Part shown: positions 5,083 through 36,281 of the stretch, piece after piece
How positions within the stretch are numbered: position 1 is the stretch's first letter
Layout: each line of letters opens with the position of its first letter
DNA from: Colwellia sp.
GTDB taxonomy: Bacteria > Pseudomonadota > Gammaproteobacteria > Enterobacterales > Alteromonadaceae
Assembly: GCA_026196955.1 (NCBI GenBank)
Contig: JAPHTO010000117.1
Coordinates: 1 to 64,000, forward strand
Reading direction: 5' to 3'
DNA length: 64,000 nucleotides
Position numbers and translations under genes: made by a program
The notes under the pieces: generated by a model
Database searches by the model: none
What the model was told of the DNA's origin: nothing
The model's input: the letters and a program-made list of their open reading frames with translations, nothing else

Positions 5083-6687
5083 TTATGGGTTATGGTATTC
5101 TGCACTGCTACGTAAGTAGTACCAGCGGTTAAGTACAATACACACTGCGTAGAAAACTGCGAAGCCGTATAGTGCATTTTCAGGTGTAGTTAGCTTGATT
5201 TGTTCACCTAATACTTTAGGGATAATGAACGCACCGTAAGCGGCTACTGCTGAAGTCCAACCTAATACCGGGCCTGCTTGCTCTTTATCAAATACCATTG
5301 AAATAGTACGGAATGTTGAACCATTACCAATACCAGTAGCAGCAAATAATATTAGGAATAACACTAAGAATTCAACAAAGTAGTCTTGTGGTGTGGCAGA
5401 GGCATAAGCTAGCTTCATGTAATGCGCTACACCTACAGCACTAGCAACCATCACAATCGCACAAATTTCAGTAACACGTGCGCCACCTACTTTATCAGAA
5501 ATCCAACCACCTACAGGGCGAATAAGTGCGCCAATGAATGGTCCCATCCAAGCATACATTAATGCACTTGGGCCAGCAGGGTTAGCTATATCATGATTCA
5601 TTACGCCATCAACCATTACATGTTGATAACCGAAAATTACTTTAATAGATAAACCAAAACCTGCAGCAAAACCAATGAAAGAACCGAACGTCATGGTATA
5701 GATAATACTCATTATCCAAGTATGCTTGTTATCAAAGATTTTATATTGACGGTTTAAGTTTTCTTTAATTTGACCTGGAAGCAATTTAAGTAAAAATACT
5801 GTCATCGCAATAACGATAGGCAATACAATCCACTTGCTAATACCAAAGCCTGAGCCACCTACTTTTTCTGGAAGCATTAACCAAAGGCCGAAAATAGCAG
5901 AAATAAAACCAATAGCTAACATACCAGAAACAATTGAGAATGAACCGATAGGGCTTGGTAAATCAGGCGTAACATGTGAGGCTTTGATGTTATTCATGCC
6001 CATCCAACCAACAACGGCTAATGGAATTAAGAATAATAACCAGATGTAACCAGCGTTATGAATCCATGCATCAGTACCTGCTGGAATTTTACCAATTAGT
6101 GTACCTGAAGTTGTTACAAGCTCCATTGGCTCGCCACCGAATAAACCAAAAGTCATTGCTAATGGCACAAGAATTTGCATGGTTGTAACACCAAAGTTAC
6201 CTAAACCAGCGTTTAAGCCTAATGCTAAACCTTGTTGTTTTTTCGGGAAGAAGAAAGAGATATTTGACATTGATGAGGCGAAGTTACCACCACCAAAACC
6301 AGATAAAAGCGCAAGAACTTGGAAAACCCAAAGAGGTGTGTTTTTATCTTGTAAAGCAATACCAGCACCGATGGCAGGTATCATTAATAACGCGGTGGTG
6401 AAAACAATGGTGTTTCTGCCGCCAGCTAAGCGAATGAAGAAGGAGCTGGGGATACGTAAAGTCGCCCCTGTCAAACCTGCTACCGCCATTAAGGTAAATA
6501 ATTCAGATTTAGCAAATGGGAAACCTAAGTTAAGCATTTGAATAGTGATGATACCCCAGTAAAGCCATACTGCGAAACCACATAAAAGGCTTGGGATTGA
6601 GATCCAAAGGTTGCGATTAGCGACCTTTTTACCTGTACTTTCCCAAAACTGGGCGTCTTCTACGTCCCATTTTTGAATGTCAGACAT
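5083..6687 (-). CDS. narK: Nitrate/nitrite transporter, NarK type
   Basis: A major facilitator of the nitrate/nitrite porter family with about 12 membrane segments. It imports nitrate and/or exports nitrite for the NarGHI reductase. At 534 residues it is longer than the 10610-11881 paralogue. The segment GLNAGLGNFGVTT is the first nitrate signature of the family, and the second half carries a matching Gly/Ala-rich helix with YGAFIIPK. It is the first gene of the nar operon, 191 bases upstream of narG on the same strand, and its own upstream region carries the strongest FNR and NarL-like sites of the locus. The direction of transport (uniport, symport or antiport) cannot be told from sequence alone. 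Confidence 0.94.
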   Translation of the reverse strand: MSDIQKWDVEDAQFWESTGKKVANRNLWISIPSLLCGFAVWLYWGIITIQMLNLGFPFAKSELFTLMAVAGLTGATLRIPSSFFIRLAGGRNTIVFTTALLMIPAIGAGIALQDKNTPLWVFQVLALLSGFGGGNFASSMSNISFFFPKKQQGLALGLNAGLGNFGVTTMQILVPLAMTFGLFGGEPMELVTTSGTLIGKIPAGTDAWIHNAGYIWLLFLIPLAVVGWMGMNNIKASHVTPDLPSPIGSFSIVSGMLAIGFISAIFGLWLMLPEKVGGSGFGISKWIVLPIVIAMTVFLLKLLPGQIKENLNRQYKIFDNKHTWIMSIIYTMTFGSFIGFAAGFGLSIKVIFGYQHVMVDGVMNHDIANPAGPSALMYAWMGPFIGALIRPVGGWISDKVGGARVTEICAIVMVASAVGVAHYMKLAYASATPQDYFVEFLVLFLILFAATGIGNGSTFRTISMVFDKEQAGPVLGWTSAVAAYGAFIIPKVLGEQIKLTTPENALYGFAVFYAVCIVLNRWYYLRSSAEYHNP

Positions 6688-30699: not shown

Positions 30700-30927
30700 A
30701 TGAAACGCGTAGTGCTTTATAGCATGGATAAATGTTCGCACTGTCAAACAGCCAAGCGCTATTTAGATGAACAAAATATACCTTACCGCTTATGTAACAT
30801 ACAAAGCCCAAAGGGAAGAAAAGAGTTTGCAACTACTGGAATGCGCGGTGTGCCTGTGCTGAAAATAGGTGAGCAATTACTTAATGGTTTTTCAGTGAAG
30901 GGTGTCAATAAATTGCTTAATTGCTAG
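30700..30927 (+). CDS. Glutaredoxin-family thiol-disulfide protein
   Basis: A 75-residue small thioredoxin-fold protein from the ATG at 30700, which has AGGA five bases upstream; a longer start at 30685 overlaps the DUF808 gene. The active site CSHC is near residues 9-12 and the cis-Pro segment is GVPVLKIGEQ. The sequence resembles the GrxC/NrdH size class. It uses glutathione or another low-molecular thiol. Its position a few genes upstream of ovoA, in the same direction, fits a thiol-redox grouping, though this is inference. Confidence 0.88.
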   Translation: MKRVVLYSMDKCSHCQTAKRYLDEQNIPYRLCNIQSPKGRKEFATTGMRGVPVLKIGEQLLNGFSVKGVNKLLNC

Positions 30928-30995
30928 CAGTTCATGCTATTTTGTTTGTTACTGCTTGCTTTATTGTAAGTTACTTTGAATTAGGGAAGATAGCT

Positions 30996-32942
30996 TTGTT
31001 GTTTGTTTTTAGAGCCATATTATTTTGTATGATCATTGGTACTAGCTCTGTGACAAGTGCTGCTGCATTAAATGATGTTTCTGCTCTCGAGAATTTACAT
31101 CATGAATTGAATCAACATCCATGGCAAACTTACCAAGACCTTCAAACACAAGCTGAGCAGTTTGAAGAAATGTCACTAGAATACAAGCTTTGGTGGTTAA
31201 ACCGTAAAGCACAAGCTGAAAACTTGTTGTTTTTATTTGAGCAATTTCAGCAAACTGTAGCCAAAGCACAAGATTTAATCACTCCAGACACACCAGCTAA
31301 GCTTACCAGTCAATTTTATATTTACAGTGGCATCATCTTTCAAAGGCAGGGGAAGTACCAAAACGCACAAAAATTACTTAAAATGGCCAAATCTGTTGCT
31401 GAAAGTAACAACTTTACCTATATAGCGGTTCAAGCAAAGCAAGAGCTCGCTTACACGCGCAGCTTAACTGAATTTTATGAGTTATCTTTAACTGAGTTAC
31501 AACAGGCCTATGTGGAAGCTTTTGCTTTTTCAGATGACTATTTAATTGCTAAAATTCATGAGGTGTATGGCGCTATATATGGTTATATGCATGATTATGA
31601 AAAGTCCATTGAGTATTATAAAAAATCACTAATAAGCTACCAACAGCTAGGTTATCCTTCAGATATTGCTGAAGCTATCAACGGTTTAGCAGCCACTTAT
31701 CGATATTGGAAGAAATTTGATCTTGCTATCGATTATTATCAGCGTTATGAGAAAGCGATTGAATTTAGTCCCCATAATGTTGATGGTAAGTTTTACGCTG
31801 CTTACGGTATTGCTATGAGTCAAGCAGAAAAAGGCGATTGCCATCAAGCATTGAAATCTATTGATAAAGCCTTGAATTTAAAAGGATTGATTGACTATAA
31901 AGCCGAAATTTATAAGCGCAAAGCACAATGTTTGATAACCTTTAATAAGTTATTAGATGCTGAAGTTGCGCTGGATAAAGCGCAAAGTATTTTTGCCAAT
32001 ATTCCCGAGTTAATTGGCACTCATTGGCAAATTGAAGTGATTAAAATACGTGCCGAATTAGCACAAGTTAGCGGTGATAGTAATCAAGCATATCAATTGT
32101 TAAAGGAATATAACCAAGTTCAAACTGCGCTAATTAAGAAAAACTCATCTGATAAGTTGTTGCGTGTTAGAGGAAAACTAGAGCATGAGCGTCAAAACGT
32201 GGAAATATCTTTGTTACAGCAAAGGGCAGAGGTGCAAAAGCTGCAGTATGAGCAGCAGAAACAAAAAAATAATTTTCAAACTTATTTAATAACCTTTAGC
32301 GTTCTATTCGCTTTAATGGTGCTCGTTTTTGTTTTCTTTCAACGAAGACACAATAAAAAATTATTGGCTTTGTCCATCAGGGATCCGTTATCAGAGCTCT
32401 ATAATCGCCGTTATGTTTTTAGTTTCTTAAACAAACTTGTGAGTGCTATTGATACTGAAAAAAGCCAAGTATCTATTATGGTGATAGATATTGATAACTT
32501 TAAACAAGTTAATGATCATTGCGGCCACCCGTTTGGTGATTATGTTATTCGTGAAATAGCAAAAATAGGACAAGAAACCTTACGTGCGGAAGATATTATG
32601 GGGCGTGTAGGTGGCGAAGAATTTTTATGTGTGCTGCCAAGAATTGATGCAGAGCAATGTATGCACATCGCTAATCGTTTTGTGAAAAATGTTAACAGCC
32701 ATAATTTTAAAATTGAGCATAAAGCTAATGAACAGCAAGTTGCTAATATTACTATCAGTATAGGAATTGCAACCACATCGCTTGAAGTTGAAGACTATAC
32801 ACAGCTGTATGCGATGGCAGATAAAGCGCTTTATCATGCCAAAAAGAATGGTAGGAATTGTGTGGTAAAATATAGCTCTGAAATGACAGAGTCAAACCAA
32901 AGTTACTTTGGCCTATCTCACCCTATTCATGAAGACAGTTAA
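30996..32942 (+). CDS. TPR-containing membrane diguanylate cyclase (GGDEF)
   Basis: A cyclic-di-GMP synthase of about 648 residues. The start is uncertain: TTG at 30996 has GGGAAG six bases upstream and gives a clean signal or anchor segment ending near TSAAALND; TTG at 30921 gives a longer form and ATG at 31029 a shorter one. TPR-like repeats fill the periplasmic part (residues about 80-390), then a coiled coil, one membrane helix (about 430-452) and the GGDEF domain. The active site is GGEEF near 539, with an RAED inhibitory site five residues before it, so it should be active and product-inhibited. Its end overlaps the start of the GS-like gene. Confidence 0.88.
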   Translation: MLFVFRAILFCMIIGTSSVTSAAALNDVSALENLHHELNQHPWQTYQDLQTQAEQFEEMSLEYKLWWLNRKAQAENLLFLFEQFQQTVAKAQDLITPDTPAKLTSQFYIYSGIIFQRQGKYQNAQKLLKMAKSVAESNNFTYIAVQAKQELAYTRSLTEFYELSLTELQQAYVEAFAFSDDYLIAKIHEVYGAIYGYMHDYEKSIEYYKKSLISYQQLGYPSDIAEAINGLAATYRYWKKFDLAIDYYQRYEKAIEFSPHNVDGKFYAAYGIAMSQAEKGDCHQALKSIDKALNLKGLIDYKAEIYKRKAQCLITFNKLLDAEVALDKAQSIFANIPELIGTHWQIEVIKIRAELAQVSGDSNQAYQLLKEYNQVQTALIKKNSSDKLLRVRGKLEHERQNVEISLLQQRAEVQKLQYEQQKQKNNFQTYLITFSVLFALMVLVFVFFQRRHNKKLLALSIRDPLSELYNRRYVFSFLNKLVSAIDTEKSQVSIMVIDIDNFKQVNDHCGHPFGDYVIREIAKIGQETLRAEDIMGRVGGEEFLCVLPRIDAEQCMHIANRFVKNVNSHNFKIEHKANEQQVANITISIGIATTSLEVEDYTQLYAMADKALYHAKKNGRNCVVKYSSEMTESNQSYFGLSHPIHEDS

Positions 32943-34107
32943 CTCCCCAAAAGCACATTACTCAGCAAACACATCGTTATATCAAGGTGCGATAATGCTC
33001 CTGCAAGGCTACCTTGAGCACTTAGGCTATAAGGCGCAAATTCACTTTGAATTAGAAGGTTGTTACCAAGCTAGGGACATAGAGCATGGTAAAGAGAAAT
33101 CGCTTGATTACAAAACAATAAATCACTGCTTACGTCAGTTAGATATTGATGGCGAAATTATTGAAGAGTATTGGCGTCATCAGTGGGAATATGTCTCTCT
33201 TTTTAATGGTCAATCACCATTAAAAGAAGCCTTGAACCTATCGAGAGCCATAGAAAAAATTCCTCAATTGTTTCAACAGCTTTATAGCAAGGATGGGGTA
33301 ACTAAAACGCTTATTCAGCCTGTAGTATGGTGTGGCGATCAAGGTAAGCTGGCTGATGGCTCAGAACAAATATTCACTCATGACACTCGCGCAGTACATA
33401 TCCCCAATGCCGTACAATTAAATGTTAGCGTAATAAATACTAAAGGAGAAAACCTGTTAGCCGAGCACGGCTTTGGCGAATATCTGCAAGATTGTTTTTT
33501 ACAAACTAGTTTAGAATGTTGTTTGCTCTACTTACCTGAAGAAGCGGCTTTTGAACGCTTAGCATTAAAGACTCGCTACGGGTTAGTTCAAGAGCTTTGC
33601 TCGCCTAATGATATTTCAGGCGGCCACCAAGGCAGTATTGCTTTATATCGAGAGCGAGGAAAGCATAATCAAAATATGGGAGAGCGGCCATTATTATATG
33701 ATCAATATAATAGCGTACTTTCTGTGATTCAAAACTGGCAGGAGACGGCTCGTATAGAGCACAGACTAGGGGCATCAAGTGTGAAATATAACCCTTATGT
33801 TAATGTTATATATGCCTTACTTAATGTTGTTGATGCTGTTCATGAACATGCTGTTGAGCAAAAAAGTGAGATGATTGAAAAACCATTTTCAGCGATAGCA
33901 CTACCAACAAGTTTATATGGTGATGGCCAAGAAATGGGCGCTGTTGAGTTATTTCAACAAAGTTGTTGGTTTAGTCAAACGCTTAATTGCGTGCAAAAAA
34001 AATATAATCGTTTGAAATTAATGCCAAGGCTTGACTGTCCTAGTCAATTAGGCGATAAAATAAAACAAGCAATAGTAGAAAATTATCATGCTGTGCTTGC
34101 AAAATAA
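32929..34107 (+). CDS. Divergent glutamine-synthetase-fold protein linked to ovoA
   Basis: A protein of about 392 residues that I assign, by eye only, to the glutamine synthetase superfamily. Collinear similarities: IHFELEG near residue 36-42 (GS E-x-E strand), AVQLNVSVINTKGENLLAE (GS GxHxHxSL--dGkN), PEEAAFERL (GS PtvNSYKRL), GSIALYRERG (GS nRsaaiR), and RIEHRLGASSVKYNPYVNV near 275-293 (GS RiE-R--da-aNPYl). The NGxGQxE segment and the HxHxS histidines are not recognisable, so the substrate must differ or activity may be lost. It overlaps the GGDEF gene by 14 bases and is 23 bases upstream of ovoA. The start is uncertain: ATG at 32995 has an AAGG site, while 32929 keeps more protein. A ligase of ovothiol or gamma-glutamyl chemistry is inference. 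Confidence 0.75.
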   Translation: MKTVNSPKAHYSANTSLYQGAIMLLQGYLEHLGYKAQIHFELEGCYQARDIEHGKEKSLDYKTINHCLRQLDIDGEIIEEYWRHQWEYVSLFNGQSPLKEALNLSRAIEKIPQLFQQLYSKDGVTKTLIQPVVWCGDQGKLADGSEQIFTHDTRAVHIPNAVQLNVSVINTKGENLLAEHGFGEYLQDCFLQTSLECCLLYLPEEAAFERLALKTRYGLVQELCSPNDISGGHQGSIALYRERGKHNQNMGERPLLYDQYNSVLSVIQNWQETARIEHRLGASSVKYNPYVNVIYALLNVVDAVHEHAVEQKSEMIEKPFSAIALPTSLYGDGQEMGAVELFQQSCWFSQTLNCVQKKYNRLKLMPRLDCPSQLGDKIKQAIVENYHAVLAK

Positions 34108-34130
34108 CTATACAAATAAGTAATTGATTT

Positions 34131-36281
34131 ATGGATGTCAGTAATAAAAGCTTCAGTAAACCGCCACGCCTTAATGGCCATAGTGTTGAAAGTAAAAAGC
34201 AAGAATTAAAAGATTATTTTCTGCAAACATGGGCAGAATATGAATCTTTATTTGGTTTAATAAATGATGATAAAGCTTACTACTTAAGACCTGAGCCATT
34301 ACGCCACCCACTCATTTTCTATTTTGGTCACACGGCCACTTTTTATATTAATAAACTAATGCTAGGAAAGTTTATTGACCAACGCCTTAATAGCAAGTTA
34401 GAAGCTATATGTGCGGTCGGGGTTGATGAAATGAGTTGGGATGATCTTAATAGCGATCATTACGATTGGCCTAGCGTTGATGAAGTAAGAGCCTACAGAA
34501 AGCAAGTTTCAGCCTTGATTGTGCAGTTGATTGATACCATGGCATTATCTTTACCTATTCAGCAAAACTCATTAGCTTGGGTAATTTTAATGGGGTGTGA
34601 GCATGAACGCATTCATATAGAAACGTCTTCAGTCATTATGCGCATGCTGCCCTTGACATATTTAACGGCGAATAAGCGTTGGCCCACGTGCACTGAAGCG
34701 GGTACTGCTCCTCAAAATCAGTTAGTGAACGTTAGCGGTCAAAGTATTGTTTTTGGTAAACCTGACAGTGATGATACCTTTGGTTGGGACAATGAATATG
34801 GCCATGATGAAATCACCCTCGAAAACTTTACAACCAGTAAGTACTTAGTGTCTAACCAAGAATATTTAGCTTTTGTTGAGGCTAAAGGTTATCAGCAACC
34901 TCAGTTTTGGACGGAAGAAGGGCAAGCATGGTTAGCATTTACCAAGGCAAATATGCCACGATTTTGGTGTCAAAAAACAGATGCCAATGGCAGTAAAGTT
35001 TACTATCAGCGTAATTTGCTCAATGAAATTCCTTTACCTATGAATTGGCCGGTTGAGGTTAATTATTTAGAAGCGAAAGCGTTTTGTCATTGGAAAAGTC
35101 AAGCAGAGGGCGAAGAGAGTTATCGTTTGCCAACCGAAAGTGAGTGGCTGTGTCTACGTAATCAAGTTACAGGCGATTTAGTGGATTGGCAGCATATCCC
35201 CGGCAATATTAACTTAGCGCTGTATGCATCGTCATGCCCAGTGGATAAATTTTCACAAGGCCATGGTCTATTTGATATTGTTGGTAATGTTTGGCAGTGG
35301 ACGGAATCAAATATTGACGGCTTTCAAGGCTTTGAGGTTCATCCTTTATATGATGATTTCTCCACACCTACCTTTGATGGTAAACATAATTTAATAAAAG
35401 GAGGCTCGTGGATCTCTACTGGTAACGAAGCAATGAAGCACTCTCGTTATGCCTTTAGGCGCCACTTCTTTCAACACGCTGGTTTTCGTTACGTCAAAAG
35501 TCATGGTCAGCAACTTCCTAATTTAGCGTCAAACCATTATGAAACCAATGTCGATATTTGTCGTCAGCTTCATGCACACTATGGCGCCGCGAGATCTGCG
35601 ATGCCGCTATCAGCTAAAAATTATAGCCAACAAATTGCCGATCACGTTTTAGCGTGTGTCGACAAGTATCATACAGCCACACACAAATGCTTGGATTTAG
35701 GCTGCAGTGTCGGACGGGCTAGTTTTATCTTGGCGCAATATTTTAATCATCTAGATGGTGTCGACTTTTCCGCCGGTTATATTCGTCATGGGGTAAAATT
35801 ACAGCAAGGTAAATCAATTCGTTATACTCTTGAAAATGAAGGGGATATTGTTGATTTTCATGAAGTTAAACTAAGTGATGTTGATTTACCTACTGGTGAG
35901 AACATTCACTTTAGCCAAGGAGATGCCAGCAATCTTAAAAGTATTTTTACCGGTTATGATCTTGTGCTTGCCCAACACGTGCTAGAGCAAAGTTATTATC
36001 CACGCTTGTTTTTAAAGAGCATACATCAACGACTAAACGCTAATGGTTTGCTCATTGTCGTTTCAGATTATCACTTTGATGAACAACAGGCAGATAAAAA
36101 CACTTGGTTAGGTGGCGTGAAAATAAATGGCGAGAATGTTACTGGCTTTGAAGGTTTGTCAGCCATTTTATCAAATCATTTTACCTTATTAGAGCAGCAC
36201 CAGTTAACGCGCACTTTAAAAGTGAATCGTCGCAATTTTCAATTGTCATTTCCTCATATGACGGTTTGGCAGTTAAAATAG
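34131..36281 (+). CDS. ovoA: OvoA: 5-histidylcysteine sulfoxide synthase / methyltransferase
   Basis: The iron enzyme of ovothiol synthesis. It joins cysteine to C5 of histidine with O2; its C-terminal domain later methylates the 5-thiohistidine. It has 716 residues, the full three-domain length. Domain 1 is DinB-like (about 20-185), with likely iron ligands His67 (GHTATFY) and the HX3HXE motif His158/His162/Glu164 (CEHERIHIET). Domain 2 is FGE-sulfatase-like (about 200-465), with NVWQWTES and GGSWIS. Domain 3 is a SAM methyltransferase (about 495-716), with LDLGCSVGRASF and GVDFSAGYI. The PLP lyase OvoB is not in the window. It is downstream of, and likely co-transcribed with, the GS-like gene. 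Confidence 0.94.
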   Translation: MDVSNKSFSKPPRLNGHSVESKKQELKDYFLQTWAEYESLFGLINDDKAYYLRPEPLRHPLIFYFGHTATFYINKLMLGKFIDQRLNSKLEAICAVGVDEMSWDDLNSDHYDWPSVDEVRAYRKQVSALIVQLIDTMALSLPIQQNSLAWVILMGCEHERIHIETSSVIMRMLPLTYLTANKRWPTCTEAGTAPQNQLVNVSGQSIVFGKPDSDDTFGWDNEYGHDEITLENFTTSKYLVSNQEYLAFVEAKGYQQPQFWTEEGQAWLAFTKANMPRFWCQKTDANGSKVYYQRNLLNEIPLPMNWPVEVNYLEAKAFCHWKSQAEGEESYRLPTESEWLCLRNQVTGDLVDWQHIPGNINLALYASSCPVDKFSQGHGLFDIVGNVWQWTESNIDGFQGFEVHPLYDDFSTPTFDGKHNLIKGGSWISTGNEAMKHSRYAFRRHFFQHAGFRYVKSHGQQLPNLASNHYETNVDICRQLHAHYGAARSAMPLSAKNYSQQIADHVLACVDKYHTATHKCLDLGCSVGRASFILAQYFNHLDGVDFSAGYIRHGVKLQQGKSIRYTLENEGDIVDFHEVKLSDVDLPTGENIHFSQGDASNLKSIFTGYDLVLAQHVLEQSYYPRLFLKSIHQRLNANGLLIVVSDYHFDEQQADKNTWLGGVKINGENVTGFEGLSAILSNHFTLLEQHQLTRTLKVNRRNFQLSFPHMTVWQLK

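Follow-up and report, generated by a model that had tools for sequence, protein, structure and literature searches.

A 64,000-nucleotide stretch of DNA from Colwellia sp. (assembly GCA_026196955.1, contig JAPHTO010000117.1; hereafter the window) contains, directly upstream of the ovoA gene, a gene for a protein of 392 amino acid residues which, judging from structure prediction, almost certainly adopts the fold of glutamine synthetase (GS). We consider it highly probable that this protein, hereafter the GS-fold protein, functions in 5-thiohistidine metabolism, and we propose, with a probability of about 0.45, that it is a carboxylate-amine ligase that uses ATP and has 5-thiohistidine or ovothiol as a substrate. 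The evidence comes from the linkage of the gene to ovoA, from the predicted fold and from the residues conserved in the family.

The GS-fold gene and ovoA

The list of open reading frames (ORFs) and the translation place the gene at 32929-34107 on the plus strand (392 residues from an ATG, with the stop codon ending at 34107), and ovoA starts at 34131 on the same strand, 23 nucleotides after its end, just as the first-pass annotation, made from the sequence of the window, had described. The start codon is uncertain, the candidates being TTG 32908, where the ORF opens, ATG 32929, which overlaps the 3' end of an upstream TPR-GGDEF gene (30921-32942) by 14 nucleotides, and ATG 32995, which is preceded by AAGG. 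The ovoA product matches both TIGR04344, for the sulfoxide synthase part (664.5 bits, cut-off 400, E = 7e-200), and TIGR04345, for the methyltransferase part (256.8 bits, cut-off 170, E = 2e-76), and has a relative in the Protein Data Bank (PDB), 8khq (E = 8e-211). On these matches we regard its identification as a two-part OvoA as secure.

Linkage of the GS-fold gene to ovoA

In a sample of 246 genomes from the family to which the window belongs, 59 have a homologue of the GS-fold gene and 75 have ovoA above the cut-off. All 59 carriers have the gene immediately 5' of ovoA and in the same orientation, with the matched segments 52 to 316 nucleotides apart (a distance between matches, not an inter-gene gap), and none of the 171 genomes of the sample without ovoA above the cut-off has a homologue. 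Two wider samples, which overlap with the family sample, gave a homologue in 5 of 398 genomes (phylum-wide, all five within the window's own family) and in 9 of 295 (order-wide, four of them outside the family).

A collection of named genomes yielded 65 loci, mostly from genomes titled Colwellia, Thalassotalea and Paraglaciecola, with Psychromonas, Algicola and others also represented and with many metagenome-assembled genomes (MAGs) among them. The GS-fold gene adjoins ovoA in 64 of these loci, lying directly upstream in 62 (gap of -41 to 103 nucleotides); the remaining locus, L081, is cut by the end of its contig 107 nucleotides after the gene. Linkage of the GS-fold gene to ovoA is near absolute, and the reverse does not hold. 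Whether the linkage extends beyond close relatives, a question raised in the first-pass annotation, can be answered in the affirmative, as it is conserved even with an alphaproteobacterial homologue of 40% identity in Robiginitomaculum (see below). No homologue was found among 72,556 plasmid records, and a plasmid origin of the gene was therefore dropped.

Some irregular copies were also observed. In one single-contig genome (G163:C1:1250028-1251019) the homologue is spread over two adjoining frames, by a frameshift or a sequencing error, and in two others (G708:C1:3182878-3183024 and G785:C159:16932-17084) a short second match, covering model positions of about 261-311, lies about 120 nucleotides 5' of the full gene and is perhaps a remnant of duplication.

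Predicted fold

No Pfam family matched the GS-fold protein at E <= 10, including the N-terminal GS domain (PF03951) and the gamma-glutamyl-cysteine ligase families GCS1 (PF04262) and GCS2 (PF04107); searches of PHROGs and of PDB sequences gave nothing at E up to 10, and the single NCBIfam match was far under its cut-off (E = 0.23). The GS models (PF00120 and PF03951) and PF04107 were likewise unmatched in any of 30 family members and four divergent ones, and PF04107 found nothing in the window genome or in 20 relatives. PDB sequence searches of the family gave nothing relevant; a match to methylaspartase (E = 0.14) was set aside as being at chance level.

The fold was predicted with AlphaFold. 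The window protein was modelled with 45 aligned family members (alignment A2: the window protein and 44 proteins chosen by hand from 56 listed; alignment A4 comprised 33). The 56 were those eligible among 65 listed, after leaving out eight with three consecutive Asn residues and, by its length, L095. The model had a predicted local distance difference test score (pLDDT) of 87.1 and a predicted template modelling score (pTM) of 0.90, and that of the homologue from locus L093 of Robiginitomaculum, which is 40% identical to the window protein, had 85.7 and 0.89, respectively. The two input alignments share most rows, so that the models are not independent replicates. In a Foldseek search of the PDB with each model, all 50 matches listed were to GS or GS-type ligases, the best listed E values being 1.4e-12 (8tfc_A, window model) and 2.2e-11 (8ufj_B, L093 model), with a probability of 1.00. 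Among the matches listed, TM-scores by query length were 0.47-0.57 for the window model and 0.52-0.62 for the L093 model, with a high root mean square deviation of 5-13 A and identities of 11-17%. The catalytic fold of GS is thus present in both predicted models. The N-terminal beta-grasp domain of GS is absent from the window model, in which the strand bearing the ExE motif comes after a stretch of just 33 residues containing one helix. These results bear out the GS fold claimed in the first-pass annotation, and the structural comparison with the GS and GCS2 families that it had proposed did not end without a GS-fold match. The GS-fold protein is a branch of the fold that went undetected by the sequence profiles used.

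Conserved residues and the GS active site

The 45-row family alignment was compared, using hhalign, with an alignment of GS (31 loci and E. coli GlnA, mainly type I GS). The probability was 1.1%, which is not significant, and those for GCS1 (13 rows) and GCS2 (30 rows) were 0.29% and 0.23%; the profile comparison was not accepted as proof of homology to GS on its own. The extended alignment places E41, Q85, E87, G139, H157, S167, R275, E277 and R279 on E130, Q219, E221, G266, H270, S274, R356, E358 and R360 of GlnA (numbers counted with Met), respectively, and N288-P289 on N367-P368. The same residue is found at 9 of 17 chosen GS active-site positions; 200 column shuffles, run against GS only, matched 2.0 positions on average and never more than 7. 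The GCS1 and GCS2 profiles score lower than GS, and these and reversed profiles fail to place the motifs.

Not all the motif residues fall into register. E43 is placed on E156 instead of E132, and E80 on E208 instead of E213; by inspection, E43 and E80 may be the counterparts of E131 and E212, which bind metal in GS (the metal residues of the GS ExE motif are E129 and E131). Around HxHxS, the first GS His is paired with H157 and H272 with N165, and Q163 is left unpaired. The active-site residues were mapped by profile alignment and inspection because the Foldseek output gives no residue pairs for a superposition.

Conservation was counted in 66 sequences, namely those of all 65 loci and of the window, including a 226-residue fragment (L095) and a sequence with 16 X residues (L068). 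The core of the family keeps acidic and Arg residues in the GS order (Table 1), and HxHxS as such is not kept. The motif NGxGxHxHxS of GS was not found in the 66 sequences, its place reading N160..Q163-x-N165-x-S167, and NGxG is not recognisable. The collinear GS-like segments pointed out in the first-pass annotation therefore exist and are strongly conserved across the family; of the two motifs that it had reported as absent, HxHxS as such is indeed missing (it reads QxNxS), whereas GQxE has an aligned counterpart, HQWE, with Q85 and E87.

Table 1. Coordinates of the GS-fold gene, its conserved motifs and ovoA in the window (counts are of 66 sequences)
Feature	Position	Strand	Basis and remarks
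Gene for the OvoA-linked GS-fold protein	32929..34107	+	ORF, homologues, AlphaFold2 and Foldseek GS fold (predicted); start codon uncertain
E41-x-E43, positioned like the ExE metal residues of GS	33049..33057	+	E41 64/66 (one X, one gap); E43 65/66 (one gap)
E80-YWxxQ85-W-E87, putative counterpart of GQxE of GS	33166..33189	+	E80, Q85, W86 and E87 65/66 each (one gap)
H157-IPNAV-Q163-x-N165-x-S167, in the place of NGxGMHxHxS	33397..33429	+	Conservation and hhalign to GlnA; Q163, N165 and S167 66/66; H157 and N160 65/66 (one gap)
E222-LxSP...GGHQGSIALY...GK245-H246-N-Q248	33592..33672	+	Family-specific core, no sure GS counterpart; E222, Y240, K245, H246 and Q248 66/66; H233 62/66
R275-x-E277-x-R279...YNPYxN, putative counterpart of RxExR...NPY of GS	33751..33804	+	hhalign to R356/E358/R360 and N367-P368; R275 and E277 66/66; R279 65/66 (one X); N288 52/66; P289 50/66
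ovoA, 5-histidylcysteine sulfoxide synthase fused to 5-thiohistidine N-methyltransferase, 716 aa	34131..36281	+	TIGR04344, TIGR04345, 8khq

The Robiginitomaculum variant and OvoA phylogeny

In the two loci from genomes titled Robiginitomaculum, an alphaproteobacterial genus (L093 and L094), the gene order is inverted, and the GS-fold gene starts 4 nucleotides downstream of ovoA. Their OvoA proteins, of 470-478 residues, match the sulfoxide synthase model and not the methyltransferase model, and no OvoA-type methyltransferase above the cut-off was found in either genome, both being MAGs of unreported completeness. Since the pairing is kept with a methyltransferase-less OvoA, the association of the GS-fold protein with OvoA does not require the methylation of 5-thiohistidine there. 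Genes for a class-III aminotransferase and a BKACE protein follow the GS-fold gene in L093 (7134-9303), and in L094 a gene of like sequence takes the place of the aminotransferase gene.

A stretch containing the S-adenosylmethionine (SAM) motif is present in 63 of 65 OvoA sequences (64 loci and the window), one of them having Ala for the first Gly, and the two without it are those of Robiginitomaculum; the idea of a dead methyltransferase in OvoA of the clade was dropped on this count.

We also reconstructed a quick tree of 81 OvoA sequences, namely 64 from the loci, that of the window, and 16 from loci without the GS-fold gene. In this tree, 63 GS-linked sequences fall into one supported group, which includes a single member without the gene (L197), 14 sequences without the gene make up a second group, and L199 belongs to neither. 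The GS-linkage label requires 3 changes on the tree, compared with a mean of 14.9 for shuffled labels. The tree is compatible with either a single origin of the Robiginitomaculum pair and the rest or separate ones.

Neighbouring genes

Directly downstream of ovoA, 28 of the 64 loci holding ovoA have a gene for a pyridoxal phosphate (PLP) enzyme, a representative of which matches Aminotran_1_2 (E = 2e-36) and Alliinase_C (E = 1.2e-8); we regard it as a candidate ovoB. Because of this lyase-like gene, replacement of OvoB by the GS-fold protein was rejected as a general rule, and the GS fold has no PLP site. At least 9 of the 16 ovoA loci without the GS-fold gene also adjoin a gene of the general PLP-lyase kind, seven by BLAST with the representative (six with 21-25% identity and E values of 1e-9 to 7e-4, and L199 with 30%) and two by Pfam alone. 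Among the 28 loci whose ovoA is directly followed by the PLP gene, motif I of the OvoA methyltransferase has Asn for Asp in 16 and His in 2.

The window genome encodes a normal GlnA, a second GS and GshA, which argues that the GS-fold protein is not a housekeeping enzyme. GlnK-AmtB genes after ovoA (named from sequence by eye, not by family search) were considered as a link to nitrogen control and rejected, being present in just 9 of 65 loci, all titled Colwellia. The TPR-GGDEF gene directly upstream in the window encodes a putative diguanylate cyclase; in 34 of 65 loci such a gene lies directly 5' of the GS-fold gene and in the same orientation, with a gap of -29 to 158 nucleotides, and may be co-transcribed with it or merely syntenic. 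Seven Paraglaciecola loci (L083-L088 and L092) have an FAD monooxygenase-like gene after ovoA, possibly for further tailoring, and a relative of 78% identity lies upstream of ovoA in L186, a locus without the GS-fold gene.

Proposed function and alternatives

From the computed fold, conserved residues and linkage, we infer ATP use, ligation, a glutamate donor and a 5-thiohistidine or ovothiol acceptor. In the proposed pathway, OvoA joins Cys and His, and a PLP C-S lyase (putatively the product of the candidate ovoB) releases 5-thiohistidine. At the next step a carboxylate, in all likelihood the one at the gamma position of glutamate, would be phosphorylated by the GS-fold enzyme and coupled to the alpha-amine of 5-thiohistidine or ovothiol, so that a conjugate of the gamma-glutamyl type results. 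A gamma-glutamyl amide is the likeliest guess because most GS-fold ligases use glutamate as their acyl donor. A ligase tailoring 5-thiohistidine or ovothiol is suggested by the GS fold, the kept acidic and Arg residues, the occurrence only with OvoA, either with or without its methyltransferase part, and the frequent lyase-like gene. Among three functions suggested in the first-pass annotation, such conjugation fits best; the feeding of gamma-glutamyl-cysteine is disfavoured, and an amino acid sensor is less likely, the kept acidic and Arg residues favouring catalysis.

Several points weigh against a ligase of this kind. There is no match of the GS-fold protein to any ligase family at the sequence level, and the hhalign bit score itself was attained by 4 of the 200 shuffles. 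Eight of the 17 chosen active-site positions are unmatched, and R322, E328, R340 and R345 of GlnA, presumably substrate and phosphate residues, align with E242, R253, S262 and I267 in what is a weak alignment. The HxHxS pair is not kept as such and the beta-grasp domain is absent, so that the activity could be altered or lost. In addition, 16 of the 75 sampled genomes with ovoA have no homologue. At L197 (genome G032), which falls within the GS-linked OvoA clade, the GS-fold gene is missing between the TPR-GGDEF gene and ovoA (5914-6281); the genome is about 80% complete, and the gene has apparently been lost, which implies that OvoA can do without the GS-fold protein. Finally, a close copy of the candidate lyase is lacking in the window genome, where the matches have only 23-26% identity.

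Some of these points, namely the altered HxHxS, the unmatched substrate residues and the missing gene in the lineage of L197, would suit a regulatory or non-catalytic partner that binds amino acids or a nucleotide and controls or stabilises OvoA, as would the strict pairing and the constant gene order in gammaproteobacteria. We consider such a partner unlikely, because ExE, QWE, RxExR and many further polar residues persist in practically every one of the 66 sequences, even at about 40% identity, which is unusual for a scaffold.

Action before OvoA or on its sulfoxide intermediate, yielding gamma-glutamyl-histidine or a glutamylated histidylcysteine sulfoxide, would be in keeping with the methyltransferase-less OvoA of Robiginitomaculum and with the position of the gene before ovoA in 62 of 65 loci. 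It is somewhat less likely still, since glutamylation on the cysteinyl side would block the PLP C-S lyase, which is generally known to need a free alpha-amine, and since OvoA of Erwinia uses L-His and Cys, as a review (PMC9103826) states.

The GS-fold protein might also supply OvoA with gamma-glutamyl-cysteine as the sulfur donor, in the manner of EgtA in mycobacterial ergothioneine synthesis. A GS-type fold beside a sulfoxide synthase recalls that system, as does a core that starts near the N-terminus without a beta-grasp domain, as in GCS enzymes. This supply is nevertheless improbable: the window genome has its own GshA, family scans of 13 of the 22 listed neighbour clusters showed no EgtC-like amidohydrolase, the GCS1 and GCS2 profiles fare worse than GS, as described above, and the same review (PMC9103826) reports that Erwinia OvoA strongly prefers free Cys over gamma-Glu-Cys. 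Hydrolysis or phosphotransfer, as by Dop or guanidino kinases, for example to cleave a thiohistidine conjugate, is equally improbable, since RxExR...NPY aligns with GS and the listed Foldseek matches are all GS or GS-type ligases, even though the GS superfamily includes hydrolases and kinases, and Pup ligase and depupylase are reported to be kin.

Relation to known systems and significance

The GS-fold protein shares its predicted fold along most of the chain with GS and the gamma-glutamylamine ligases (PF00120; PDB 8tfc, 4hpp, 5dm3 and GmaS 7cqn), and in the profile alignment QxE, RxExR...NP and the first Glu of ExE follow one another as they do in GS. It differs from them in having no Pfam match, low identity in the listed Foldseek alignments and no beta-grasp domain, in reading QxNxS for HxHxS, and in the lack of a recognisable NGxG and of matches to the four GlnA residues named above. 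EgtA and the gamma-glutamyl-cysteine ligases (PF04107 and PF04262), which probably belong to a common superfamily with the GS-fold protein, offer a precedent for a GS/GCS-type protein paired with a histidine sulfoxide synthase, and by inspection the spacing of E80..E87 resembles that of D60..E67 in E. coli GshA, residues with a metal role. Here, however, the partner is OvoA instead of EgtB, there is no Pfam or profile match, and no amidohydrolase was seen in the scanned neighbour clusters. Since features that define GS, GCS1 and GCS2 were looked for and not found, we place the GS-fold protein in none of these and treat it as a new family that has the GS fold.

A closer functional parallel is 5THNAT, an OvoA-linked 5-thiohistidine N-acetyltransferase that modifies the alpha-amine and is in some cases paired with a methyltransferase-less OvoA (PMC12631010). 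The GS-fold protein is likewise linked to OvoA, would tailor 5-thiohistidine and can pair with an OvoA of that form; as an OvoA-linked enzyme acylating the alpha-amine, 5THNAT is a precedent for tailoring at that position by the GS-fold protein. The two differ in that 5THNAT is a GNAT-type enzyme of Bacteroidota using acetyl-CoA, whereas the GS-fold protein is presumably ATP-dependent and occurs mainly in gammaproteobacteria. The same study surveyed ovoA neighbourhoods and mentions no GS-like gene in its main text. Among the open-access papers listed in the literature searches, no title or abstract opening describes a GS-like enzyme linked to ovothiol or OvoA, and we found no report of a thiol of the gamma-glutamyl-5-thiohistidine or gamma-glutamyl-ovothiol type.

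According to that 2025 study, no enzyme other than OvoA and 5THNAT was known to recognise a 5-thiohistidine, and the role of these compounds cannot be learned until more such enzymes have been found (PMC12631010). The GS-fold family has no Pfam or NCBIfam model and is confined to the neighbourhood of ovoA in dozens of genomes, which makes it a candidate for thiohistidine conjugation that can be tested directly, and the GS fold gains a branch that the profiles used do not see. If the family is indeed one of ligases, there may be a second branch of 5-thiohistidine metabolism, and we suggest tentatively that an amide of a thiohistidine, such as gamma-glutamyl-5-thiohistidine or gamma-glutamyl-ovothiol, is produced by marine bacteria (the Robiginitomaculum version being made from unmethylated 5-thiohistidine); such an amide would be a small thiol analogous to glutathione.

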